Part shown: in pieces, positions 6,191 through 15,152 of the stretch
Layout: each line of letters begins with the position of its first letter
How positions within the stretch are numbered: position 1 is the stretch's first letter
DNA from: Planctomycetota bacterium
GTDB lineage: Bacteria > Planctomycetota > PUPC01 > DSUN01
Assembly (NCBI GenBank): GCA_016872875.1
Contig: VGYW01000187.1
Coordinates: forward strand, 1 to 15,496
Direction: 5' to 3'
Length of the DNA: 15,496 nt
Notes under the pieces: generated by a model
What the model was told of the DNA's origin: nothing
Databases searched by the model: none
What the model saw: the letters and a program-made list of their open reading frames with translations, nothing else
Made by a program: the position numbers and the translations under genes

Positions 6191-7990
6191 TCACTTGAGG
6201 AAGTCAGGCAGATAGCCATCGCCCCCGACCTTGGGCTGACGCTTCTTCCGCTCCTCTTCACGCTTGCGGCGCTCATCCTCGCGGAGGGCGAGATAGGAGC
6301 CGCGCGTCAGGCGGTCCTCCCTGTCCTTCCCGGCAATGACGACGATGGCGCTCTCGGCCAGGAGGTTCTGCTTGACGTTCTCGTGGAAGCAGCCGGTCTG
6401 GCACAGGCCGCAGCCGTTGCACTTCTCTGGCAGCACCACGGGGGCCGAGAAGCCGCTCCCCTCGATGGGCTGGTTGTTCTCGTCGAGCTCCACGTGGACG
6501 CGGACGAACTCGATGGCGTGATAGCCGGCGGCTTCGCACTCCTTGTGGCAGCGTTCGCAGGCCCTGGTGCCGAGGTGTGGGAGGCAGGTGGGCTTGACTA
6601 CGGCGAGGCCGATGCGCGCCGCCCGCTTCTCCTCCAGGGGCAGCGCGCGAATCGCCCCCGTGGGGCACACCTGGCCGCAGTTGTTGCACTTCGGCTCGCA
6701 GCCCACCCAGTCGGGCACGAGCCTGGGGGTCCAGAGGCACTCGAAGCCCCCCTCGAAGCCCATCGGCTGAAGGGCGTTGTAGGGGCAGGCCTTGAGGCAC
6801 TCGCCGCAGCGGACGCACAGTTGGAGGAACTGCGGCTCGGGCACGCTCCCCGGGGGACGGAGGGGAGGATGGTCAGGGGGCGCGCCGCGAAGCTGGCGGA
6901 CTCCGACTGCGGTGGCGAGGCCAGCGCCCAGGCCAGCGGCGAAGCCCCGGCGCGAAACCCGTGCTCTCTCCTCAGTATCACTGGTGGCACAGGCGTCCCG
7001 CCTGTGTCCCTCACAGGCCGGAGGCCTGTGCCACCGAAGCCCGAACTCGATTGCGGCGACGGGGCAGGCCCGGGCACAGCTCTGGCAGAAGGTGCAGTCG
7101 AGAGGGCGAGTGGTGAAATCAGGGTTGATGGCATCGAAGGAACAAGCTCGGACGCACTTGCGGCAGCCGATACAGGCGGGCGTGACCTTGCGCTCCGTCA
7201 GCCGCAGGAGATTGGCGGCGGAGAAGACGGCCCCGCTCGGGCACAGGCAGCGGCACCAGAAGCGCGCCGCGAGCAGGCCAAGCAGAATCGTGGCCACGAA
7301 CAGGCCGATGGAGAGCCAGTGCCCGGCGTGCAGGGCGGGGTTGAGATACCAGCCCTTCGCAAAGCCGAGTTGCACCGGGGCAGCAAGATACATCATCCCG
7401 CGCGTGAAGACGGGAATTGCGGCGACGAAGCCTGTGAGGAGCACCCCACACGCGGCCGCGGCGAGAACGCCCGCGAGCAGATAGTATCTCAGGTGAACCC
7501 ACCACCCACGCCTCAGGCTCCCTCTCCCTCTGGGAGAGGGTGGGGTGAGGGTTCCGGGAACGGGGGCCGCGCCAGCTCCGGCGCCCCTCACCCTACCCTC
7601 TCCCAGAGGGAGAGGGATTCGGAGACGCTTACCCACGGCCCAGTTGAAGGCATCGAGCAACGTGCCAAAGGGGCACACGTAGGAGCAGAAGCCCCTGGGG
7701 ATTGCCAGGCAGACGGCCAGGATCGCGCCGGCCCAGGTGAGCGACCAGACCCATGCCTTCGCCGCCAGCGCAGTCGAGACGCTCACCAGCGGGTCGAGGG
7801 CCAGAAACGCCTCGGCGTCCACCACCTCGCGGGCGGCCCGGGCCTCCGCGTGCTGCCGCACGTCATACGGCCAGCAGACGTAGAAGAACAGGAACACGAA
7901 GAGCGCGAAGCAGGCCGCCTGGACGAAGCGGCGTGCGCGGCCAAACCCCCGAAACGCCATTGAGACCAAGAAGTAAGCTCTACTGCTCAT
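6191..7990 (-). CDS. NapH-NapG-like membrane polyferredoxin fusion
   Basis: This 599-residue protein joins two families that are usually separate. Residues 1-315 resemble NapH: four hydrophobic segments (about 27-45, 77-97, 165-187, 223-242), loop motifs FCSYVCPFGTLLD (C102, C106) and RFWCRCLCPSGA (C246, C248, C250), and two 4Fe-4S motifs (C273/276/279/283 and C299/302/305/309). Residues 346-599 resemble NapG/MauM: SRRGF followed by a hydrophobic stretch (twin-arginine signal), then clusters at C392-402, C431-442, C469-485 and C524-534. NapGH pass electrons from quinol toward periplasmic acceptors, and the acceptor here is unknown. No nap reductase gene is present. Two palindromic repeats lie in frame, at residues 125-157 and 319-336, the latter exactly between the halves. 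The start (ATG 7990) has a GAAGGG upstream; an ATG at 7960 is an alternative without a good site. Confidence 0.85.
   Translation of the reverse strand: MSSRAYFLVSMAFRGFGRARRFVQAACFALFVFLFFYVCWPYDVRQHAEARAAREVVDAEAFLALDPLVSVSTALAAKAWVWSLTWAGAILAVCLAIPRGFCSYVCPFGTLLDAFNWAVGKRLRIPLPLGEGRVRGAGAGAAPVPGTLTPPSPRGRGSLRRGWWVHLRYYLLAGVLAAAACGVLLTGFVAAIPVFTRGMMYLAAPVQLGFAKGWYLNPALHAGHWLSIGLFVATILLGLLAARFWCRCLCPSGAVFSAANLLRLTERKVTPACIGCRKCVRACSFDAINPDFTTRPLDCTFCQSCARACPVAAIEFGLRWHRPPACEGHRRDACATSDTEERARVSRRGFAAGLGAGLATAVGVRQLRGAPPDHPPLRPPGSVPEPQFLQLCVRCGECLKACPYNALQPMGFEGGFECLWTPRLVPDWVGCEPKCNNCGQVCPTGAIRALPLEEKRAARIGLAVVKPTCLPHLGTRACERCHKECEAAGYHAIEFVRVHVELDENNQPIEGSGFSAPVVLPEKCNGCGLCQTGCFHENVKQNLLAESAIVVIAGKDREDRLTRGSYLALREDERRKREEERKKRQPKVGGDGYLPDFLK
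6983..7035. repeat. REP-like palindrome inside the NapH/NapG junction
   Basis: The outer arms GGTGGCACAGGC (6983-6994) and GCCTGTGCCACC (7024-7035) are perfect reverse complements. Inside are two further hairpins, CACAGGCG-TCC-CGCCTGTG and CACAGGCC-GGA-GGCCTGTG. The element is translated as residues 319-336 of the polyferredoxin, giving WHRPPACEGHRRDACAT-like sequence that is unlike its surroundings. The layout is that of a paired REP (BIME-like) unit normally found between genes. Confidence 0.85.
7519..7617. repeat. 99-bp long-armed palindrome inside the NapH-like domain
   Basis: The arms 7519-7551 and 7585-7617 are 33-nt reverse complements with a single mismatch. Each arm holds its own hairpin, CCCTCTCC-CTCT-GGGAGAGGG in type. 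The element is exactly 99 bp, so it adds 33 codons without a frame change. It encodes residues about 125-157 (IPLPLGEGRVRG ... LTPPSPRGRG), a Pro/Gly/Arg-rich insert between the second and third hydrophobic segments. From memory, palindromes of this CCCTCTCCC type occur widely in intergenic regions of many bacteria. Confidence 0.85.
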
Positions 7991-8006: not shown

Positions 8007-8067
8007 GTTCGTAGTGCGGCCTTCAGGCCGTATCTGGAGCGTACGGGCTAAAGCCCGCACTACGAAC
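8007..8067. repeat. REP-like cruciform between PA14 and polyferredoxin genes
   Basis: The outer arms GTTCGTAGTGCGG (8007-8019) and CCGCACTACGAAC (8055-8067) are perfect reverse complements. They enclose two hairpins, CGGCCT-TC-AGGCCG and CGGGCT-AA-AGCCCG. The element fills most of the 106-nt gap between the PA14 gene stop (8097) and the next start (7990). It could attenuate transcription or stabilise the upstream message. Related units occur at 10353-10381 and 11900-12009. Confidence 0.85.
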
Positions 8068-9542: not shown

Positions 9543-10404
9543 CGTATTTCTCCAGCAATGCCTTGGCTGCCGCGGCTATTGCCGGCTTGTCGCACGACCC
9601 AAGCCGCCGCAGGAGTGCCCTGCCCTGCTCGCCGCGGCGGAGGACGTCGCTCTCGTGGAAGCGGAACCGTGCCACGGGGTCGACAGACAGGTGGTCGAAG
9701 AGCGGCGCCAGCCTAGCCTCGAGACCGGGGTGCTTGCGGATGGCGGCCCAGAATGCCTCGCGTTCCTTCAGGCTCGCAAGCGCGGTCTCTGCCGCGTTGA
9801 GGACGAAGTTGGTGATGAACCCGCCCGGGCCTGCGCCCTTCTTCACGCCGTCCAGGAACTTCTCAACGGCGGAGATGGCGCTCGGGTCGCCGATCTGCTC
9901 AAGCGCCTCCAGGTGGCGGACGAAGACGGTGCTGGGCTGAAGCTCCTTTGGGCCGTGGACGTCGTTGAGCGCGCCCGGCCCAAGCCGCGCGAGCCATTCG
10001 GAGAGTGCGGGCACGGCCTTCCGCTCGCGGAGCACGCCCAAGACGATGCAGAGCTGGTTGCGGACCGCGAGGTCCTTCTTCTCGGCCGCCAGGAGGCCGA
10101 CGAGGGCGTCGCGTGCGGCGGGGGTGGCGATCTGGCCGAGGAGCTCGATGGCGAGCCAGCGGGGCGGGAGCGGCCCGGGGTCGGCCGCGAGGCTCTTGAG
10201 GGCGGGCACCGCCGCGTCGCCCAGCGCCGCCAGTGCGTGCCGTGCCTTCCACTCGGCCAGGGCGTCTGGGCCGCGGAGCGCGGCCAGGTGCGCCTCCATG
10301 CTCTCAGCCGCAGACACGCCTGCGAGGGCGCAGGCCAAGACGCCCCCGGCAAGATACCGCCTGAAGGCGGCACTACAAACCAGGAGGGCGTGTGACGGCA
10401 TCAT
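9526..10404 (-). CDS. Exported HEAT-repeat protein
   Basis: This gene encodes 292 residues. The start ATG (10404) overlaps the stop of the FMN-binding gene as ATGA, implying translational coupling; a second ATG follows directly. The open frame extends far upstream, but that part is out of frame with, and inside, the FMN gene and is not used. Residues 1-33 form a signal peptide (FRRYLAGGVLACALAGVSA), part of which is encoded by a palindromic repeat. From about 50 onward there are HEAT-like helix pairs: EWKARHALAALGDAAVPALKS, PRWLAIELLGQIATPAARDAL, VRNQLCIVLGVLRERKAVPAL, VRHLEALEQIGDPSAISAV. HEAT repeats form superhelical protein-binding scaffolds. No catalytic residues are visible. Being between an FMN carrier and a PA14 protein, it may assemble the exported components, which is inference. 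Confidence 0.8.
   Translation of the reverse strand: MMPSHALLVCSAAFRRYLAGGVLACALAGVSAAESMEAHLAALRGPDALAEWKARHALAALGDAAVPALKSLAADPGPLPPRWLAIELLGQIATPAARDALVGLLAAEKKDLAVRNQLCIVLGVLRERKAVPALSEWLARLGPGALNDVHGPKELQPSTVFVRHLEALEQIGDPSAISAVEKFLDGVKKGAGPGGFITNFVLNAAETALASLKEREAFWAAIRKHPGLEARLAPLFDHLSVDPVARFRFHESDVLRRGEQGRALLRRLGSCDKPAIAAAAKALLEKYDGLAR
10353..10381. repeat. Half REP element within the HEAT protein signal peptide
   Basis: CCGCCT-GA-AGGCGG (10357-10370) is a perfect hairpin next to GCACTACAAAC. This matches the arm-plus-hairpin layout of the GTTCGTAGTGC units at 8007-8067 and 11900-12009. On the coding strand it gives residues 8-18 of the HEAT protein, including the two arginines of the signal peptide n-region. 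It appears to be one half of that repeat family lying in coding sequence. Confidence 0.7.
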
Positions 10405-11765
10405 TTCATCGCCCCGGCCAGGGCCTTGGCGGCGGCGTTGACAATCGCCTCGGAGGTGATCGTGGCCTGGGTCACGGCGTCTATGCCCTTCAGGCTCTGC
10501 TTGTCCACGATCTGCTTGGGCACGGCGGTGAGCGAGGCGTAGTACTGCTTGTCTTCGGTGCGGGTGACTTTGACCTCCTCGATGCGTCCGGCGGCGATGG
10601 TGACGGCGACCTCGAGGGGCCCGGCGTAGGCGGGCATGGTCGCCCGGTAGGTGCCGTCGGGCACACGCTTGAGGTCGAGCGCGTCGTAGAGCTTCACGGC
10701 GTCTATGTTGGCCTGTGCCCGCTTGTGGGAGCGCTCGACGTGGCCCTTTCGCTGTCCGACGGCCGGGACGGCGAGGACCTTCTGGTATGCGGCGAGCGCC
10801 TCGCGGAAACGCCCGTGGAGGCGGTAGGTGTCGCCCATCAGCAGGTGGCCCTCGGCCACCCAGCCGGCGTCGGTCCGAACGTCCTCCTGCGTCATCCCGT
10901 ACGCGAGCTTGAGCGCCTTGTCCACCTCGCCCATGTCGGCCCAGAGCTTCACGATGCCCGACGAGATGTAGCGGTCCACCTCGCGGAGCTTCTCGGCGGC
11001 CATCGGCTTGGAGCCGAGGCGCCAGTAGCACTCGGCGAGGCGCACGGTGTTGAAGACGCTCGTGGCCCTCCGCTGCTCGCACTTCTGCCACCAGAAGGCG
11101 GCGCGCGCCCAGTCCTGAAGGAGGTTGAAGTAGCTGCTCCCCAGCGAGTCCATCACCCGCGCGAGGACGGCCGGGTTGTCCTTGTGCACGGTGAGGAGAT
11201 GGTGGAGGAAGCGGATGCCGCTGTGCCAGCGGCTCGGGTTCTCGTTGATCGTGCTCCAGATGTACTGGCCGACGTTTCTCGACGGGTTCCACGGGCCTTG
11301 CACCCTCTCGGGCCACGAGAGGTCGAGGGTCTGCGGGTAGTCCAGCGGCGTCTTCTCATACCAGTCGGGCGGCGTGCTGCCGGCCTGCTTGATGAGGGCC
11401 TCGACGTCGGCCCGCGAGCGTGTGACGCGGCCCGTGATCGGCTTCGGCGTGGGCGCCTCGCCCTCGCTCTTGGCCTCGGGCGCGGGCTCCGACTTCGGCA
11501 CGGGCCTGGGCGCAACGGCCACGGGCTTATCGTTCAGCACCCGCCGCTCCCCGCCCACCGTGATGGCGTGGATTCGGCTGGTGGGGAACTTCATCTGCGC
11601 CGAGCCGTCCCCCACCGCCAGGCGCACGATGACCATCGCGGCGGTCTGCTCCACCACCTCGCCCCGCACCCGCTGGCCGTTGAGCAGCTCCAGCTCATCC
11701 CCGCGCGCGCGGGCCAGCACCATGGAAAGAAGGAACCCCAGCCAAACCGACGCTCGCTTTGCCAT
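10401..11765 (-). CDS. Exported FMN-binding-domain protein with TPR-like middle
   Basis: This gene encodes 454 residues from the ATG at 11765, preceded by GAGGAAGAGA. Residues 1-22 are a signal peptide. Residues 23-80 form a small beta domain (LELLNGQRVRGEVVE, FPTSRIHAITV), followed by a Pro/Ala/Glu-rich linker to about 115. Residues 180-345 are helical and TPR-like (ARAAFWWQKCEQRRATSVFNT, LAECYWRLGSKPMAAEKLREV, EALAAYQKVLAV). Residues 370-454 are an FMN-binding domain of the RnfG/NqrC/NosR type: DGTYRATMPAYAGPLEVAV, then DAVTQATITS (D429 to S438). In this family ApbE attaches FMN to the second Thr of an S/T-G-A-T motif, here T435, but the Gly is replaced by Gln433. No apbE gene is in view. 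It heads the operon with the HEAT and PA14 genes and could exchange electrons with the polyferredoxin downstream, which is inference. Confidence 0.85.
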   Translation of the reverse strand: MAKRASVWLGFLLSMVLARARGDELELLNGQRVRGEVVEQTAAMVIVRLAVGDGSAQMKFPTSRIHAITVGGERRVLNDKPVAVAPRPVPKSEPAPEAKSEGEAPTPKPITGRVTRSRADVEALIKQAGSTPPDWYEKTPLDYPQTLDLSWPERVQGPWNPSRNVGQYIWSTINENPSRWHSGIRFLHHLLTVHKDNPAVLARVMDSLGSSYFNLLQDWARAAFWWQKCEQRRATSVFNTVRLAECYWRLGSKPMAAEKLREVDRYISSGIVKLWADMGEVDKALKLAYGMTQEDVRTDAGWVAEGHLLMGDTYRLHGRFREALAAYQKVLAVPAVGQRKGHVERSHKRAQANIDAVKLYDALDLKRVPDGTYRATMPAYAGPLEVAVTIAAGRIEEVKVTRTEDKQYYASLTAVPKQIVDKQSLKGIDAVTQATITSEAIVNAAAKALAGAMK

Positions 11766-11899: not shown

Positions 11900-12009
11900 G
11901 TTCGTGGTGCGGGCTTCAGCCCGTCCTGTAGGCGGGGCCTCCGTGCCCCGCGTCTCTCTCCCCCGTGAGCGCGGGGAGGAAGAGACGGCCTGAGGGCCGC
12001 ACTGCGAAC
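11900..12009. repeat. REP-like palindromic cluster after the FecR gene
   Basis: The imperfect outer arms, GTTCGTGGTGCGG at 11900 and CCGCACTGCGAAC at 11997-12009, belong to the same family as the unit at 8007-8067. Inside are GCGGGGC...GTGCCCCGC and a larger hairpin with CGTCTCT (11951-11957) pairing AGAGACG (11981-11987) plus CTCCCC/GGGGAG. It starts 22 nt past the FecR stop, so in the minus direction it is well placed to slow or end transcription, but no T-run follows. Confidence 0.75.
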
Positions 12010-12031: not shown

Positions 12032-14254
12032 TCACTCGGCCTCGAGCTTCCTGAGCACCTCGACGAGGCGCATCGCCTTCCCCTCGTGGTGGATGGCGCC
12101 CGCGGCCACGCGGTCGCCCGCCTTCACCTCGCCCAGGGCCTTGACGAGCGCCTCGTTGGCGTTCGCGTCGTACTTCAGCGTGAGCGACACGAGCTTGCCG
12201 ACCATGGCCTCCGGCTTCTTCGCCGTGCTGCTCTGCCAGGACTTCACGACCTTGTCCACGCGCAGGATGACGGCGTCGGATGCCTTGCCGACGACCGTGC
12301 CTTCGAGCATGCCCCGGAAGCCTTCGAGGATTTCGGCGGTTGCCACGCCGCCGCTCTCGACGCGCGGCTTGGGCCGCTCCTCGCCCCCTTCGCCCTCGGT
12401 GCGCTTTTCACGCACCTCGCCTTCGCCTTCGCGCCGCACCGGCTTCTCGCGCCATTCGCCTTCGCCCTCGCCATCGCGGCGGATCTTCTTCTCACGCACC
12501 TCGCCTTCGTGCTCGCCGTCACGGCGCAGCTTCTTCTCGCGGACCTCGCCTTCGCCCTCGCGGTGGACCGGCTTGTCGCGCCGCTCGCCCTCGCCGGCCG
12601 GGCCGTCGAGCACGCGGAACTCCTTGATGACGATGGCCGGCTCCCCCTCGCCGGGCGTCACGATGCCGGCGACCCGCACGCGGCGGCCGCTGGCCTCGCG
12701 CACGAGCCCCTCACCCTTGCCTTCGTTCATGATGCGATAGACGACGGCCTTCTCCCGCACGCCTTCCTCCGTCTCGACCCTCTCGACGACCTTGAGGATG
12801 CCCAGGCAATCGCGGTCAGGCGTGGCCTTCACCCAGCCCGTCAGCTCCTTCATCCCCTCGGCGCGCGGCTCGGTCTTCTTCTCGCGCACCTCGCCCTCGC
12901 CCTCGCGGCGCTCGGTCCGCTTCTCACGCACCTCGCCTTCGCCCTCGCCGTGCGGGCGCTTTTCGCGGACTTCGCCCTCGCCGTGCGGGCGCTTTTCGCG
13001 GACTTCGCCCTCGCCGTGCGGCACGCGCTTCTCGCGGGCCTCGCCTTCGCCCTCGCGGTGGGTTCTCTTCTCCCTGACCTCGCCCTCGCCTTCGTGCGGG
13101 ATTCTCTTCTCGCGGACCTCGCCCTCGCTGCCGCCGCCTTCGGCCTTGCGGAAGAGCTCCATCACGGTCAGGCGGAAGCCCTGGAGGTCGAACGCCTCCA
13201 CGATCACCTTGTCGCCCTTCCGCATGCCCTTGAGGGCGTGGAGGTGCTGCTCGAGCATGCGGTTCTGGCCGACCGCGATCTCGACGGTCTTGCCGACCGC
13301 CCGCTCGGGGGCCTCGGCCTTGCTCTCAGGCCAGACCGTCGCGATCTTCTCGATCTTCAGGTTGAACTCGCGGCTCACCTCGCTCGTGATGGTGCCGACG
13401 AGGATGCCCTTGAAGCCCTTGAGCTCGGGCGGCAGGCTCGCGCGCGGCTCGTCGTGCCCGGCGAACACCTGGCTCATCCCTGGCCCCAGCACCGCCACGT
13501 CGCCGAAGTGGCAGGCCACCACCCCAGTCACCACCATCACCGTCACCACCGCCGACTTCCTCAGCTTCCCCATGTCACGTTCTCCTTTCAGAGAATCGGG
13601 GTACTCCACGCTGGTGAGGAACCGGGTCCCCTTGACCTCTACGGTGCCGATGGGCGTGAGGAGCGCGAACCGCCCCTTGCCCGGCGTGACCTCGGACACG
13701 ACGCGTCCCCGCTCAAGCTGGACCGCCTCGCGCCCGGCGCCGCCGCGCACGACCACCTCGGTGTTCGGGTCGAGGGTCAGGCGGCAGTAGCCGCCCAGGC
13801 GCAACTCAGCTCCCTTGTCTCCAACCGCCAGCCGCGCGCCGCGGCCAACCGCCGGCGAGCCGACGACCGCATAGTCCCCGCTCGCCTGTGGCTCTGGATA
13901 GCCCCGGCCCGAGAGCGCCAGGAGCGCGCCCAGTGCGGCCAGCAGGAGCGCCGCGGCGGCGGCAGCCGCCGCCACCGCCACGCGCCTCAGCCGACGCGGG
14001 GCGCCGGCGCGCAGGCTCACCGCCTTCGCGCGGAGAGCCGCCTTCGCGAGCAGCCGCTCGCGCGAGAGCGCGGCGCCCTCGCCCTCCGCCCCCGCAAGGC
14101 GCTCGCGCAGTTGCCCCTCGAAGCCGAGGAGCGCCACGGCCTCGCTCCGCCGCTCCTCGCTGGCAAGCGCGCGGGCAAGAAGCTCCGCCTCGCGGCCAGA
14201 GAGCTCTTCGCCCTCAAGCGCCCGGTCAAGCAGCTCGCGCCACTCAGTGCTCAC
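12032..14254 (-). CDS. FecR-domain membrane protein with duplicated domain and REK charged repeats, putative sigma regulator
   Basis: This gene encodes 740 residues from a GTG at 14254 that overlaps the sigma factor stop (GTGA). Residues 1-87 are cytoplasmic and helical (EWRELLDRALEGEELSGREAE type), a likely sigma-interacting segment. Residues 91-114 are a single Ala/Leu-rich transmembrane helix. Residues 125-266 are a FecR domain (LTLDPNTEVVVRGG, LLTPIGTVEVKGTRFL, VAVLGPGMSQVFAG). Residues 279-370 and 644-736 are copies of one unrecognised domain (GFKGILVGTI / GFRGMLEGTV ... VGK ... KGDKV / AGDRV ... LFRK / VLRK). Residues 375-460 (seven) and 563-620 (four) carry EGEVREKR-type repeats, and residues 467-552 form a different beta-rich domain. 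FecR proteins control ECF sigma factors across the membrane. The rest of the chain has no known role that I recognise. The frame stays open upstream of 14254, but that part overlaps the sigma gene. Confidence 0.8.
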   Translation of the reverse strand: MSTEWRELLDRALEGEELSGREAELLARALASEERRSEAVALLGFEGQLRERLAGAEGEGAALSRERLLAKAALRAKAVSLRAGAPRRLRRVAVAAAAAAAALLLAALGALLALSGRGYPEPQASGDYAVVGSPAVGRGARLAVGDKGAELRLGGYCRLTLDPNTEVVVRGGAGREAVQLERGRVVSEVTPGKGRFALLTPIGTVEVKGTRFLTSVEYPDSLKGERDMGKLRKSAVVTVMVVTGVVACHFGDVAVLGPGMSQVFAGHDEPRASLPPELKGFKGILVGTITSEVSREFNLKIEKIATVWPESKAEAPERAVGKTVEIAVGQNRMLEQHLHALKGMRKGDKVIVEAFDLQGFRLTVMELFRKAEGGGSEGEVREKRIPHEGEGEVREKRTHREGEGEAREKRVPHGEGEVREKRPHGEGEVREKRPHGEGEGEVREKRTERREGEGEVREKKTEPRAEGMKELTGWVKATPDRDCLGILKVVERVETEEGVREKAVVYRIMNEGKGEGLVREASGRRVRVAGIVTPGEGEPAIVIKEFRVLDGPAGEGERRDKPVHREGEGEVREKKLRRDGEHEGEVREKKIRRDGEGEGEWREKPVRREGEGEVREKRTEGEGGEERPKPRVESGGVATAEILEGFRGMLEGTVVGKASDAVILRVDKVVKSWQSSTAKKPEAMVGKLVSLTLKYDANANEALVKALGEVKAGDRVAAGAIHHEGKAMRLVEVLRKLEAE
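12949..13014. repeat. Exact 33-nt tandem duplication within the REK repeat region
   Basis: Two copies of a 33-nt unit (12949-12981 and 12982-13014) appear identical at the base level and encode two consecutive 11-residue GEVREKRPHGE units. The other REK repeats nearby (12390-13130) are diverged, so this pair looks like the newest duplication. It keeps the frame. Confidence 0.85.
13582..13588 (-). promoter_or_regulatory. Internal Shine-Dalgarno site in the FecR gene
   Basis: AAAGGAG on the minus strand lies 8 nt before an in-frame ATG at 13573 (M228). The peptide that follows, MGKLRKSAVVTVMVVTGVVAC, has a basic start and a hydrophobic core like a signal or lipoprotein peptide. It may allow a second, shorter product, or it may be chance, because the same residues fit the end of the FecR fold. 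Confidence 0.45.
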
Positions 14255-14835: not shown

Positions 14836-14911
14836 CCATCAAACGTTTCATACTCCCAAGGTGGGGCGACGGAACCCCGAACATCACACCGAACACCCCT
14901 ATGGGCGCTCT

Positions 14912-15152
14912 GGCGATCCGGACGCATCCGGGGCCGTTTCTCCCATAGTGTATCAACTGCGTGCCTGATGTTTGACCCACTATGGGTACTTCGGCGATCC
15001 GGACGCATCCGGGGCCGTTTCTCCCATAGTGTATCAACTGCGTGCCTGATGTTTGACCCACTATGGGTACTTCGGCGATCCGGACGCATCCGGGGCGTCT
15101 TTTCCCATACTGGGTCAACTGCGCGCGCACGTTGACCCACTATGAGCGCTCC
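14912..15152. repeat. 81-bp tandem repeat, three copies, upstream of the sigma gene
   Basis: Copies begin at GGCGATCCGGACGCATCC at 14912, 14993 and 15074. The first two appear identical over 81 bp; the third is diverged and slightly shorter. A partial unit precedes the array (14895-14911). Each unit carries an inverted repeat, CCCATAGTG ... CACTATGGG (14942-14950 and 14978-14986 in the first), extending to GTTTGACCCACTATGGG facing GTTGATACACTATGGG. A smaller hairpin, CCGGA-CGCA-TCCGG, is also present. The period equals 27 codons, so frames stay open through it, but no coding signal supports translation. The array lies 80-320 nt upstream of the sigma gene and may be a regulatory region. Confidence 0.85.

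Follow-up and report, generated by a model that had tools for sequence, protein, structure and literature searches.

A dispersed palindromic repeat at the seam of a fused NapH-NapG-like polyferredoxin from Planctomycetota: a probable passenger in a tolerant linker

One polyferredoxin gene in Planctomycetota contig VGYW01000187.1 (15,496 nucleotides, referred to here as the window) joins a NapH-like and a NapG-like half in a single reading frame, and a palindromic repeat lies between the two. The question raised by this locus is whether the repeat made the fusion, as the earlier note had suggested, or entered a linker that already existed. The features on which the argument turns are as follows.

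6191..7990, minus strand: NapH-NapG-like fused polyferredoxin gene (599 aa, ATG at 7990), from the open reading frame list, Fer4 families and NCBIfam.
7519..7617, no strand: another inverted doublet, family B, that falls in a NapH-half loop and encodes residues 125-158, from the repeat scan (score 30).
7064..7096, minus strand: final cysteine cluster in the NapH half (C299-C309), from invariant columns of the 24-row and 113-row alignments.
6983..7035, no strand: REPIN-like inverted doublet (family A) encoding residues 319-336, from the repeat scan, the fold and matches in genome G001.
6947..6952, minus strand: twin arginine R347-R348, an internal Tat-like motif, from the 197-row alignment.

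The 599-aa polyferredoxin matches Fer4 families and, in NCBIfam, is NapH-like over residues 166-322 and NapG-like over residues 351-555. Both scores fall below the curated cut-offs (42.5 bits against 234 for the NapH equivalog NF007013, and 89.4 bits against 269 for the NapG equivalog NF007012), and the halves are for this reason called "NapH-like" and "NapG-like" only. C309 and R347, which bound the seam, are kept in all 197 aligned rows; position 348 is arginine in 196 rows and lysine in one. The protein has the layout that PMC5449189 describes for Dual Sec/Tat polyferredoxins, with both halves in one polypeptide and a conserved twin arginine between them. An AlphaFold model built from 113 rows (mean pLDDT 84.7, pTM 0.84) predicts a helix at residues 347-366; a model from 24 rows (mean pLDDT 49.6) was set aside in its favour. 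Confidence is lowest at the last residues (57) and in both regions translated from a repeat (block means of 47-62 over residues 121-160 and 53-64 over 321-340), although low pLDDT is expected anywhere that few rows align. Foldseek comparison of the 113-row model with the PDB gave no matches at E ≤ 0.001.

P0001, the database entry for this polyferredoxin, is only 510 aa long, and therefore the gene caller picked a start further downstream; similarity to relatives sets in near residue 18-20. Elsewhere in the window, positions 10401-11765 encode a TPR protein with an FMN-binding domain. Because a relative of it is present in the fetched stretch at 70 of 80 polyferredoxin loci, the two proteins probably work together.

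The family A palindrome consists of two 24-nt arms (6983-7006 and 7012-7035) separated by a 5-nt spacer. It had been described as perfect; the inverted repeat is real and in frame, but 22 of 24 arm positions pair (92% complementarity). The RNA fold of 6983-7035 has an energy of -47.5 kcal/mol against a mean of -25.9 for shuffled sequences (z -7.0), and none of 200 shuffles was as good. The unit begins with GGTGGCACAGGC and ends with GCCTGTG, and so carries at its end neither the GTAG nor the CGTC tetranucleotide used as the test for those two REP superfamilies. A REPIN is two inverted REP units with a short spacer, and family A has this arrangement (24-nt unit, 5 nt, inverted unit). Translated in frame, the repeat gives RWHRPPACEGHRRDACAT, and the proposed repeat-made segment of 18 residues between C309 and R347-R348 is thereby confirmed as residues 319-336. 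This segment is not, as had been thought, the sole stretch of the seam that fits neither family: few positions are conserved across P310-R347 (P310, A313/I314, F316 and R319) in the 24-row and 113-row alignments, in which the linker outside the insert is hardly better conserved than the insert itself. In an open-frame test, families A and C were barely above shuffles, family D and that of the Pirellulales gene L023 (see below) were above them, and families B, E and F were not.

Relatives of the polyferredoxin were collected in two ways. A protein search listed the best 120 of 1888 homologues, one being P0001, and took only lengths 0.55-1.75 times that of the query; the other 119 listed homologues are single proteins covering 92-99% of the query, in a search whose length filter kept out any NapH or NapG encoded on its own. 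A DNA scan of genome contigs gave 466 confirmed relatives, the best 80 of which were examined. A single open reading frame of at least 480 aa spans the seam in 77 of these 80 loci, and the remaining three also read through it (L072 is cut by a contig end, and L076 and L077 are frameshifted only past the seam). The 197-row alignment comprises the 77 loci, the 119 database homologues and the window, and is partly redundant (for example, L001 is P0003); L072, L076 and L077, with open reading frames below 480 aa, and P0001 are left out of it.

All 197 rows are fused. The seam, measured from C309 to R347, has a median length of 30 aa and is at most 31 aa long in 169 rows, 32-35 aa in 4 and at least 36 aa in 24; the seam of the window gene exceeds the overall median by approximately 7 residues and the seams of several close relatives by 12. 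A scenario in which family A inserted itself where napH and napG adjoined, deleted the stop/start boundary and so produced the fusion is suggested by the exact position of the repeat at the seam and by E. coli, in which napH and napG are separate genes (PMC5449189). We give it almost no credence: 169 of the fused rows have short seams, the closest of these rows (P0004, P0007, P0008, P0010 and P0011) are fused with a seam of 25 aa, and the syntenic orthologue L001 is fused and carries a different repeat. The proposed comparison with homologues, as a search for split genes or for fusions lacking the repeat, thus turned up fused relatives without it, and the idea that the repeat erased the boundary between two genes is contradicted. 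Fused NapH-NapG polyferredoxins in which the twin arginine precedes the fifth helix have also been published from other phyla (PMC5449189).

The dispersal of family A was measured in G001, which is the nearest genome searched and not the window's own. It contains L001, an orthologue 72% identical to the window polyferredoxin, in a stretch with relatives, 85% and 80% identical, of two proteins encoded next to it in the window. Family A has 88 matches in G001 (both strands counted), which by our grouping represent approximately 40 places; they occur as doublets and as singles, and the best is 96% identical over 56 nt. Among the six genomes reached through the loci, family A is strong in G001, weak in G003, G005 and G006 (best E values from 0.005 to 0.2) and was not found in G002 or G004. 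Across the phylum, at least 3 of 392 genomes have it at E ≤ 1e-6, with at most two candidates scored per genome. The polyferredoxin itself was matched in two of 59 G001 relatives (G001 and G011). None of the 19 Y1_Tnp matches in G001 has family A beside it in the fetched flank. Several of these matches have other palindromes alongside.

Some G001 copies lie in linkers or loops of other proteins. In CarA the element starts at residue 176, between domains at 26-151 and 203-360. A radical-SAM protein of TIGR03960 has it from residue 222, between domains at 65-214 and 274-438, and an AMP-binding enzyme has it in a loop, from residue 398. The notion of a mobile palindrome acting as a protein linker therefore holds in part: the family is dispersed in G001 and has copies in the linkers of other proteins, but it did not create this fusion. 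Copies in genes are rarer than random positions would be (19 of 37 against 1118 of 1708 controls at a score of 0.2), with the same direction at scores of 0.3 (12 of 37 against 924 of 1708) and 0.4 (5 of 37 against 637 of 1708), suggesting that genic sites are disfavoured by selection overall; this test used 37 copies from 39 scored stretches and a codon model trained on open reading frames of the same loci. When the 19 copies above 0.2 were compared with Pfam, 12 had a same-frame domain (E ≤ 1e-5) and 7 had none, and in 3 of the 19 a domain was found on both sides of the element or across it (Pfam; for 9 of the 19 also NCBIfam). Survival at tolerant linkers fits both the linker copies and the overall rarity of family A in genes.

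The same seam holds other palindromes in other genes. L001 has a different palindrome there (68 matches in G001), its G001 paralogue L074 a third (family C, 99 matches in G001) and L023, from Pirellulales, a fourth, whose 30-nt arms are perfect and which is matched 81 times in the L023 genome. At the L017 seam there is a looser doublet (14 matches in its genome) that is below the threshold of the inverted-repeat scan, its layout being our reading of one copy. All four match counts include the query's own place and both strands. As a control, a non-seam stretch of L001 gave six matches: itself, two in the contig of the paralogue, and three at E values from 5e-6 to 9e-3. Among the six inserts (five from seams, one from the loop of the window gene), none of the 15 pairs showed similarity above the best of 200 shuffles; the closest pair was that of the window and L001, a score reached by 8 of the 200.

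A scan of 78 family genes (167,352 nt) gave nine inverted repeats with a score of at least 13. Four of these are at the seam (window, L001, L074 and L023); the other five are in the NapH loop of the window gene (one), in the residue-45 loop (L029 and L033) and upstream of the start (L004 and L006). Four of seven coding repeats thus fall in approximately 5% of the protein (binomial 2.5e-4, or 1.4e-3 for three of five without the window), in a post hoc calculation on which it bears that L001 and L074 share one genome. The 24 seams of at least 36 aa comprise five that are repeats by DNA, P0003 (the product of the L001 gene), P0002 (which has the peptide of the window) and 17 without a demonstrated repeat. 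By eye, the long seams of L065 and L080 contain short tandem repeats (NPKSEIRNPK and SSQITDYELRV).

Transposase-like neighbours were found for one of these families. At L174, ten family C units flank a Y1_Tnp-like (RAYT-like) gene at 1407-2135, with four in frame within it; the Y1_Tnp match (22.0 bits) is just under the Pfam cut-off of 23. The family of L023 was beside none of the three Y1_Tnp matches in G065, save for one unit with six mismatches, and that of L017 was beside none of the five in G066.

P0002 has the same 17-residue peptide as the window with the same flank lengths (10 + 17 + 10), at 76% overall identity. In trees built without the seam, P0002 groups with P0008, whereas P0003 and P0010 are the partners of the window protein; a tree joining the window and P0002 is not rejected (p-AU 0.155). 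The two inserts may reflect one insertion, two, or recombination. Two insertions, which the shared peptide and flanks in separated branches could mean, would suit a true hot spot, at which the transposition machinery prefers the sequence or structure of the seam and targets it beyond what tolerance would explain, and five families at a single seam point the same way. Such targeting is nevertheless improbable, as it would require a target common to different families, inserts are found in further loops of the polyferredoxin, and the tree test does not reject a common origin of the two inserts.

Repeats are prone to misassembly, and the palindrome-bearing loci are metagenome contigs; the palindromes could in principle have been put at the seam by misassembly. 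We judge this extremely unlikely given that the frame is open and both halves are conserved in each case, that P0002 carries the same peptide as the window on another contig, and that seam palindromes occur in three separate genomes. The insert might instead be kept for a function, for example as an mRNA hairpin at which translation pauses once the Sec-inserted half is made and before the Tat-exported half follows. The strong hairpin at the seam, the long inverted repeats at four seams and the peptide common to the window and P0002 at 76% overall identity would agree with this; however, 169 of 197 relatives manage without a long seam and the L017 doublet is under the inverted-repeat threshold, and we consider such a function very unlikely. 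A broader proposal is that REP families are a recurrent supply of linkers in these Planctomycetota, with seams refilled by whichever family is active and the NapH-NapG hairpin kept for translational pausing, by which the repeat would have gained a use; this is speculative, and we hold it to be unlikely.

The fusion is general in the sampled relatives, family A is dispersed in G001 with copies in other genes, and the seam carries other dispersed palindromes. Because the protein was already fused and different palindromes are found at the joint in relatives, the palindrome looks like a tolerated passenger. We consider it very probable that the fusion is old and general and that a mobile palindrome was inserted in its tolerant linker, as a passenger and not as the cause of the fusion. 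An old NapH-NapG fusion would have consisted of a membrane-bound NapH-like half, a short and poorly conserved linker, the internal Tat-like motif and a NapG-like half, and a REPIN-like doublet of the dispersed family would have been inserted in frame into this pre-existing linker. The insertion may have been carried out by a RAYT-type transposase; it is for family C of the paralogue that the L174 units point to this. The seam would be one of few sites in the protein that tolerate a foreign peptide, and this tolerance would account for different REP families at the seam in different lineages: five in five genes, with a sixth in a second loop of the window gene. The inserts would then have persisted through tolerance and not through site choice. 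Another Sec/Tat protein, Sco2149, is still recognised by Tat after up to 30 residues of its loop have been deleted, and approximately 8 residues are enough (PMC5449189); by analogy, the tolerance of large deletions in the loop before its twin arginine may count in favour of tolerance at this seam.

Rickettsia palindromic elements are the classic case of in-frame palindromes. They are inserted in frame in unrelated protein genes (PMC10969869). These elements are approximately 150 bp long and come from Rickettsia, whereas family A is 53 nt long and comes from a Planctomycetota contig; the two are likened here by description. The intragenic REPs described in PMC3733652 occur singly or as inverted dimers in frame within open reading frames, including in the PVC group (Opitutus terrae). 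That paper also describes different REPs at about one recB site in two Xanthomonas, and proposes linkers and loops as neutral places. Family A resembles these intragenic dimers in being short, palindromic, inverted and read in frame; unlike the REPs described there, it has no GTAG or CGTC end tag, and unrelated families share one inter-domain seam. It resembles REPINs (PMC3116915) in its inverted units and short spacer; REPINs are also dispersed in many copies in their genome, and for family A the 88 matches were counted in G001. It differs from REPINs in that no RAYT was found beside it in G001 and many copies look intragenic. The layout of the window polyferredoxin, compared by description, is shared by Q1NSB0, a fusion polyferredoxin of MLMS-1 whose single chain runs from NapH through a twin arginine and one more membrane segment to NapG; the account of Q1NSB0 in the cited part of PMC5449189 mentions no repeat insert. 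In searches of the open literature we found no description of REPs in a linker between NapH and NapG. Both types have been published before, REP dimers read in frame (PMC3733652) and fusions of NapH with NapG (PMC5449189), and what is distinctive here is five families at one seam.

A guessed gene-fusion event is thus replaced by a clearer case, one protein seam with five different mobile palindromes. As a natural series, these genes allow one to ask whether mobile repeats select where they insert or simply persist where they are tolerated; the series also bears on how much linker sequence in such genomes derives from repeats. For annotation it carries a warning: a peptide like HRRDACAT or GGTGVPPV can come from translation of a repeat.

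The seam repeat is one of two in the gene; the family B doublet at 7519-7617 is also inside it. In G001, family B is matched 106 times, in part within a single tandem cluster; G006 and G011 gave no matches. P0004, P0010 and P0017 have other inserts near the residues 125-158 loop. Palindromic, AT-richer inserts encoding NIEHPT-type peptides are present in the residue-45 loop of L029 (752-841) and L033 (767-842), within the open reading frame of the gene.

Further repeats are found in the window outside the polyferredoxin gene. GTAG-type palindromic repeats (GTTCGTAGTGCGGCCTTCAGGCCGT and inverted copies) lie at 8007-8067, 10356-10380 and 11900-12009, mostly outside the main open reading frames, and one family C unit is located at 11927. 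An inverted palindromic pair (AGCCCAGGGCGAAGCCCTGGG) is found at 2164-2321, on the start side of the gene at 1-2079. Three 81-nt tandem repeats lie at 14896-15138, near a sigma-factor-like gene, and positions 12378-13136 hold a repetitive open reading frame with ten similar 57-nt copies.
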